A DNA stretch of 34,181 nucleotides, taken from the NCBI GenBank assembly GCA_016928555.1, contig JAFGKM010000012.1, positions 1 through 34,181 of the forward strand, written 5' to 3'. Shown here in pieces: positions 7,172-7,247 of this stretch; the first letter of the stretch is position 1; every line of letters begins with the position of its first letter. This DNA comes from Candidatus Omnitrophota bacterium. GTDB taxonomy: Bacteria; Ratteibacteria; UBA8468; B48-G9; JAFGKM01. A model generated the notes under the pieces. It saw only the letters and a program-made list of their open reading frames with translations, was not told where the DNA came from and did not search any database. Made by a program: the position numbers and the translations under genes.

Positions 7172-7247
7172 TTCCGAATCTGCGGCACGGCAATATAATT
7201 GAGATTGCTTCGTCGCTATACTCCTCGCAATGACAAACAACGGGGAG
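7172..7247. repeat. TGTCATTGCGAG-type palindromic repeat abutting the eno ribosome binding site
   Basis: On the minus strand the gap reads TGTCATTGCGAGGAG...GCAATCTC, then an ATTGCCG arm and GATTCGG running directly into AAAGGAGG. The first part is the well-known dispersed TGTCATTGCGAG / GCAATCTC repeat; the end resembles the GTTCGG...AAAGGAG edge found upstream of rpsM, rpsD and rpoA. The element occupies the whole space between the HAD stop codon and the eno ribosome binding site. Confidence 0.75.

Follow-up and report, generated by a model that had tools for sequence, protein, structure and literature searches.

The gap between a HAD-family ORF and the enolase gene eno, in the window analysed here (a 34,181-nucleotide stretch of a Candidatus Omnitrophota genome, G000), contains a palindromic repeat that runs through a short edge into the eno ribosome binding site. 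An edge of this kind also accompanies the repeat in the alpha operon, and the first-pass annotation took the eno gap to be a possible older insertion of the same family. The locus raises the question of whether repeat and edge are one element, and what the eno copy represents. We think it rather probable that the gap is a composite, in which the remains of a genus-specific leader stand around a TGTCATTGCGAG palindrome lodged in the leader loop.

Both genes, and every part of the gap, read on the minus strand. The HAD-family ORF (7248..7910; the name is that given in the first-pass annotation) ends with a stop codon at 7250-7248, and eno (5904..7160) begins with an ATG at 7160-7158. Direct reading of the window gives TGTCATTGCGAG...GCAATCTC and then GATTCGG-AAAGGAGG, as had been described, and the whole stretch from the HAD stop to the eno start runs AAATCTGACTCCCCGTTGTT-TGTCATTGCGAGGAGTATAGCGACGAAGCAATCTCAATTATATTGCCGTGCCGCA-GATTCGG-AAAGGAGG-ATTTG-ATG. 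The left part of the repeat (TGTCATTGCGAGGAGTATAGCGACGAAGCAATCTCA, 7200..7235) has TGTCATTGCGAG at 7235-7224 and runs on to GCAATCTCA at 7208-7200, while the right part (ATTATATTGCCGTGCC, 7184..7199) is truncated by comparison with full copies. The eno copy therefore has TGTCATTGCGAG together with GCAATCTC and lacks two features of full copies, the CTCGCAATGACA arm at the end and the AAAAACGTC linker; with its right end absent, there is no complete palindrome with a CTCGCAATGACA end. The edge, GATTCGG (7174..7180), is followed by the Shine-Dalgarno sequence of eno, AAAGGAGG (7166..7173, with the ATG at 7160), so that the gap sequence stands directly before the Shine-Dalgarno sequence and start codon on the same strand.

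The palindromic repeat and the alpha-operon edge

The repeat had been called common, and this description holds. Its 12-mer half-site, TGTCRTTGCGAG, has 90 exact occurrences in the 1.95 Mb genome, compared with 1 for the reversed control pattern, and therefore the repeat is real. Exact half-sites number 0-4 in 15 relatives (4 in G001, the only other genus member compared, and 0-2 elsewhere); expansion of the TGTCATTGCGAG repeat is confined to this species. Palindromic intergenic repeats of the TGTCATTGCGAG type occur in other phyla. The repeat within the eno gap is of that kind, and such repeats are separate from the leader element described below. A literature text search for TCATTGCGAG returned only unrelated matches, apparently oligonucleotides, and no paper on the repeat. 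In G000 the TGTCATTGCGAG repeat has a further repeat module (cattattcttcgcaccagcaccctcccccctcgagggggaggaagataggtgggggggcaatcttttccgg) joined to its CTCGCAAYGACA end. Many of the joined copies are found where contigs end (L029, L034, L049, L303, L313, L322, and L327 are examples), so breaks in the assembly are probably due to this repeat.

At up to 2 mismatches, the alpha-operon edge, GGTTCGGGGTAAAG, has 61 occurrences in this genome, compared with 14 for the control. Many of them lack a neighbouring TGTCATTGCGAG and share a 5' half, AAATCNNNACCCCTCAC, 19-23 nt upstream; the repeat-free copies, of which there are at least 23 in this genome, end in AAAGGAG and a start codon. The edge follows only 22 of the 90 repeat half-sites. 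Because repeat-free copies exist and so few half-sites have the edge, the edge forms the 3' half of a leader distinct from the repeat, which is inserted in the leader loop. Leaders free of the repeat include those of rpsD in G000 and rpoA in G001, as well as more than 20 further loci. The first-pass annotation had treated the edge as the end of the TGTCATTGCGAG repeat, a view that fails because the edge also occurs alone, and what had appeared as one "repeat plus edge" is corrected into two separable elements.

If repeat and edge were nonetheless one mobile unit, the eno gap would be an older insertion of the alpha-operon repeat family. Repeat-filled copies do have a linker, (A)nACGTC, in common between palindrome and edge, and the composite may be copied whole in this species. 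The repeat-free edges largely refute this explanation, however. The many half-sites without an edge also speak against it, and G001 has ~40 sequence-model matches to the leader but only 4 repeat half-sites, its leader loops holding palindromes other than TGTCATTGCGAG. We consider a single unit very improbable.

Within the alpha operon, leaders precede rpoA, rpsD, and rpsM, all on the minus strand. The rpoA leader (20269..20405) has the canonical arms ACCCC / GGGGT and a full TGTCATTGCGAG palindrome in its loop, and scores 33 bits (E 2e-6) with the covariance model. The rpsM leader (22073..22164) has canonical stem arms and a shortened palindrome in its loop (45 bits, E 1e-9). In both of these gaps the repeat stands between the two leader halves, and here the parallel that had been drawn with the eno gap is borne out. 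The rpsD leader (21064..21121) has no insert and a compensated stem, ACTCC / GGAGT; it scores 64.5 bits (E 8e-15), rpsD being in the training set of the model. In the rpsK-rpsD gap (window 21090-21235) a further hairpin resembling a repeat (TCATCCCTGCGGATAGTAAGCAGGGATCC) is present, and the intact rpsD leader has a second leader-like edge (GGTTCAGAGTAAAAGCAGG) upstream of it; a sequence akin to that of this gap, TCATTCTTGCGGACAGTAAGCAGGAATC, lies upstream of the leader at L035. Another loop insert, TTCCCCGGAAAAGCCCGGGGC or close variants, is found in the G000 leaders at L068, L108, and L116, and a stretch resembling it is present in a leader (L121) of G005, which represents a sister genus.

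Structure, placement, and distribution of the leader

The leader consensus is AAATCNNN-ACCCC-UC-AC-loop-GU-UC-GGGGU-AAAGGAG-AUG. ACCCC in the 5' half and GGGGU in the 3' half form a 5-bp stem, inside which lie a conserved UC/UC internal loop and an AC/GU step. The loop of the leader is ~22 nt, and loops range overall from ~14 to 162 nt, with at least three types of insert.

Stem variants are often compensated (ACTCC/GGAGT, ATCCC/GGGAT, CCCCC/GGGGG, ACTCT/AGAGT), and the leader stem covaries. Among 31 short-loop copies, 92% of cells are paired, and in 13 cells both members of the pair are changed (mean of shuffles, 3.6). These copies score 0.265 for covariation, versus 0.170 for the shuffles, none of 500 reaching it; the shuffles do not preserve relatedness among copies, and the slid controls, which do, are also far below the true stem. 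A set of 58 two-ended copies scores 0.186 versus 0.148, a level that none of 500 shuffles attains, and shuffling of whole arms gave at most 280 paired cells in 20000 shuffles, compared with the 282 observed. The test is conservative for compensatory changes, because copies were picked by similarity to one consensus.

In ViennaRNA predictions few copies form the stem (mean pairing 0.28), and the accessibility of the Shine-Dalgarno sequence is unaffected. A-C mismatches in the stem are commoner than G-U pairs; the data therefore show pairing, and RNA is not singled out over DNA. A possible second helix within the loop, UGA/UCA, has 65% of cells paired and few informative pairs. Thermodynamic insulation of the Shine-Dalgarno sequence found no support, its unpaired fraction being 0.65, compared with 0.63 when the upstream sequence was shuffled and 0.69 when the left arm was disrupted. 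A likeness to integron attC sites or the tRNA T arm, judged by eye, was dropped, as the consensus positions do not fit.

An ATG ORF lies at the expected distance after 53 of 61 testable leader copies; on the opposite strand the count is 0 of 61, and for random positions in the same loci it is 5%. Other AAAGGAG sites are a fairer control, because the leader motif itself contains AAAGG, and by this standard start-site placement is seen at 32 of 34 leader AAAGGAG sites versus 27 of 138 others. In seven of the 53 placed copies the stem runs straight into the start codon (GGGGTAAATG or a close form). Members of this second class of leader (L046, L060, L100, L041, L139, and L320, and L120 and L133 in G001) are without a downstream Shine-Dalgarno sequence, and most have AAAGGAG-like letters in the loop.

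Placement bears on a further explanation, that the leader is a mobile element of DNA (a MITE), bounded by imperfect terminal inverted repeats (ACCCCTCAC / ACCCCGAAC) and inserting just before A-rich Shine-Dalgarno sites, its covariation arising from hairpin intermediates or template switching and not from RNA function. This would fit the weak predicted RNA stem, in which A-C mismatches are not avoided, and copies that are dispersed and genus-limited, that of rpsD occurring in G000 only; moreover, the Shine-Dalgarno sequence that the leader abuts is also present at empty eno sites (G006, G008, and G010). The strict bias in strand and position argues against it, as does the distribution of the Y1 transposase, one candidate mobiliser, which does not track with the leader: no Y1_Tnp gene was found in G001 (~90% complete), which has many leaders, and the gene is present in leaderless relatives. 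We regard a MITE as possible but doubtful. REP elements mobilised by Y1 (RAYT) transposases were also considered and rejected, since Y1_Tnp and the leader do not co-occur.

The ORFs behind this strand-specific placement, at Shine-Dalgarno distance, are of unrelated function. According to Pfam, the downstream genes encode RNase PH, ribosomal protein L1, 6-phosphogluconate dehydrogenase, MreB, a class I tRNA synthetase, a sigma-70 factor, cyclophilin, phosphofructokinase, and rubrerythrin, among others. A functional regulon was rejected on the basis of this assortment of unrelated housekeeping genes. Core genes with a leader at their start include rpoA, the sigma-70 factor, rpsD, rpsM, rplA, HU, mreB, and probably eno.

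Copy counts come from searches, with the stretches around matches examined. A sequence-only model gives ~50 matches in G000 (49-56 by cut-off), 41 in G001, and 6 in G005, as well as one weak match in each of three further genomes. A structured model gives 41 in G000 at E up to 0.05 and, at E up to 1e-5, 31 in G000, 10 in G001, 2 in G005, and none in the other 32 genomes of the phylum. Overall there are ~40-55 copies in G000, with ~10-40 in G001 and 2-6 in G005 by model and cut-off, and among the phylum genomes searched the leader is essentially limited to genera g1 and g5. In Rfam 15, at E up to 1, the window and six leader loci matched no family, the only hit being a tRNA.

Both genus members have a leader at rpoA, rpsM, and HU, and orthologous leaders with different loops also occur at PTS EIIA-like, sugar isomerase-like, and OmpH-like genes. 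The rpoA leader is repeat-free in G001 and repeat-filled in G000. The rpsM leader is strongly diverged in G001 (L365, AAATCATACCTTCCTCGCCGTGAAAGCGTATCAGGTAGAGTGAGGGGGTGAAGGAG), with its middle kept and its arms unlike the consensus, and the rpsD leader is found in G000 and not in G001. In nine other family members, rpoA, rpsM, and rpsD have plain gaps wherever the gene could be read, and in the family members read from other genera the leader is absent at eno and the alpha operon. Its gain is thus limited to this lineage. Two events are involved, the gain of the leader in the genus and the filling of its loop with the repeat in the species. The proposed "older insertion of the same family" was right as to parallel and divergence but merged these two events.

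The eno gap as a probable leader remnant

Before eno, G001 has ...TTTTTTAGTCGTTCGGGGTAAAGGAGTGATAATG, a leader 3' half of canonical form that follows a G001-type insert. The edge reads GTCGTTCGGGGTAAAGGAG, and the leader there, GTCGTTCGGGGTAAAGGAGTGATAATG, has its 5' half beyond the contig end. In five family members (G005, G006, G008, G010, and G012) eno directly follows HAD without a leader, and AGGAGG or a close form lies upstream of the leaderless eno in G006, G008, and G010.

In G000, the 5' half of the leader would be represented by AAATCTGACTCCCC (7242..7255), diverged from the consensus AAATCNNNACCCC and overlapping the HAD stop codon (7248-7250). The remnant reaches 5' to ~7255, beyond the interval first reported, 7172-7247. 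The score of this left flank is reached by 16 of 2000 shuffles and by 8 of 83 non-leader repeat flanks, the latter making it moderate evidence for a 5' half. On the right, the edge had rightly been called diverged (GATTCGG versus the consensus GTTCGGGGT), and its score is reached by 54 of 2000 shuffled edges and by 17 of 143 other AAAGGAG sites. GATTCGG-AAAGGAGG equals ATTCGGAGT-AAAGGAGG minus AGT, three stem bases. Because these bases are absent from the 3' arm, the stem at eno is broken, and ACCCC / GGGGU-type pairing across the loop is not found. With the covariance model the eno copy goes undetected, at 6.4 bits (E 0.16), and the best full-gap alignment, to the repeat-filled leader at L044 (with a loop insert), is mostly via the repeat.

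It could be, then, that eno shares only the Shine-Dalgarno sequence with the leaders, the repeat having landed in the gap and GATTCGG being there by chance. The lack of a significant model match and the 17 of 143 AAAGGAG sites that are equally edge-like would agree with this. We nevertheless think it unlikely, since both flanks at once beat most shuffles and a canonical 3' half stands at the same place in the only other genus member. The shared part probably extends beyond the Shine-Dalgarno sequence, as the first-pass annotation supposed, although the resemblance of the flanks is weak taken alone. As the covariance model misses the eno copy, its assignment to the leader rests on orthology together with this weak resemblance, and from these comparisons we conclude with moderate confidence that it is probably a decayed relative of the leader family, not an intact member. 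Because the G001 edge is canonical, the divergence of the edge at eno looks like leader decay, not insertion age. A repeat-family tree would tell little here, the copies being so short and composite. An OmpH-like gene in G000 (L350 / L306) has a repeat-filled leader with its edge decayed to GGTTCAAAAAAAGGAGG, parallel to eno, and its G001 orthologue (L182) keeps GGTTCAGGGTAAAGGAG, a better-kept leader.

A possible role and the closest known systems

According to the composite reading, the outer parts of the eno gap (~7255-7242 and 7180-7166) would be leader remains and the inner part (7235-7184) a truncated species palindrome in the loop. The leader itself may be a cis-acting mRNA element at translation initiation, a role that is our best guess and remains putative. 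It is probably bound by an RNA-binding factor or by the 30S platform; recognition by protein or the 30S subunit is proposed because predicted folding alone leaves the stem open in most copies. The leader may have spread by copying and survived only where the spacing between the Shine-Dalgarno sequence and AUG stayed intact, its loop apparently tolerating insertions. At eno, where the stem would since have decayed, initiation probably depends on the preserved AAAGGAGG by itself. A broader reading, which we regard as possible but doubtful, is an undescribed class of cis-acting RNA leader in one or two genera of a little-sampled phylum, at ~50 gene starts, with a putative dedicated RNA-binding factor and a loop that would serve as a harmless landing site for palindromes.

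If the leader acts in translation initiation, an additional point of control would be common to dozens of housekeeping genes in one genus, and two sequenced species would show a leader gained, filled with repeats, and lost (eno and the OmpH-like gene). The loop of a pre-existing structure also offers a simple account of palindromes beside the ribosome binding sites of essential genes.

The leader is previously undescribed and new, while dispersed small repeats associated with gene starts are already known as a kind. BOX elements of Streptococcus pneumoniae are boxA-boxBn-boxC composites in which the end modules fold around a variable, insertable middle; they are transcribed with neighbouring genes, and their ends are reported to affect downstream expression (PMC3049150). 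With its conserved ends and variable middle, the leader is BOX-like in architecture, not in membership. Compared on that basis, its ends are much shorter, its copies stand strand-specifically before start codons, and the palindromes inserted in it are unrelated and vary from species to species.

The small inverted-repeat elements of Neisseria, known as Correia repeat enclosed elements or NEMIS, are dispersed and act on adjacent genes, with RNase III binding as one route of action; the parts of that account drawn on here mention no fixed distance to a Shine-Dalgarno sequence, unlike the leader (PMC2649163). Finally, the TAACTGA direct repeats of marine Beggiatoaceae occur in many copies just upstream of the starts of functionally unrelated genes, ribosomal protein genes among them, and translational regulation has been proposed (PMC4679880). 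The leader is TAACTGA-like in its placement at gene starts and in having no functional theme, and we do not claim membership: the TAACTGA elements are short direct repeats that usually replace the Shine-Dalgarno sequence, whereas the leader is a paired element directly before a strong one.
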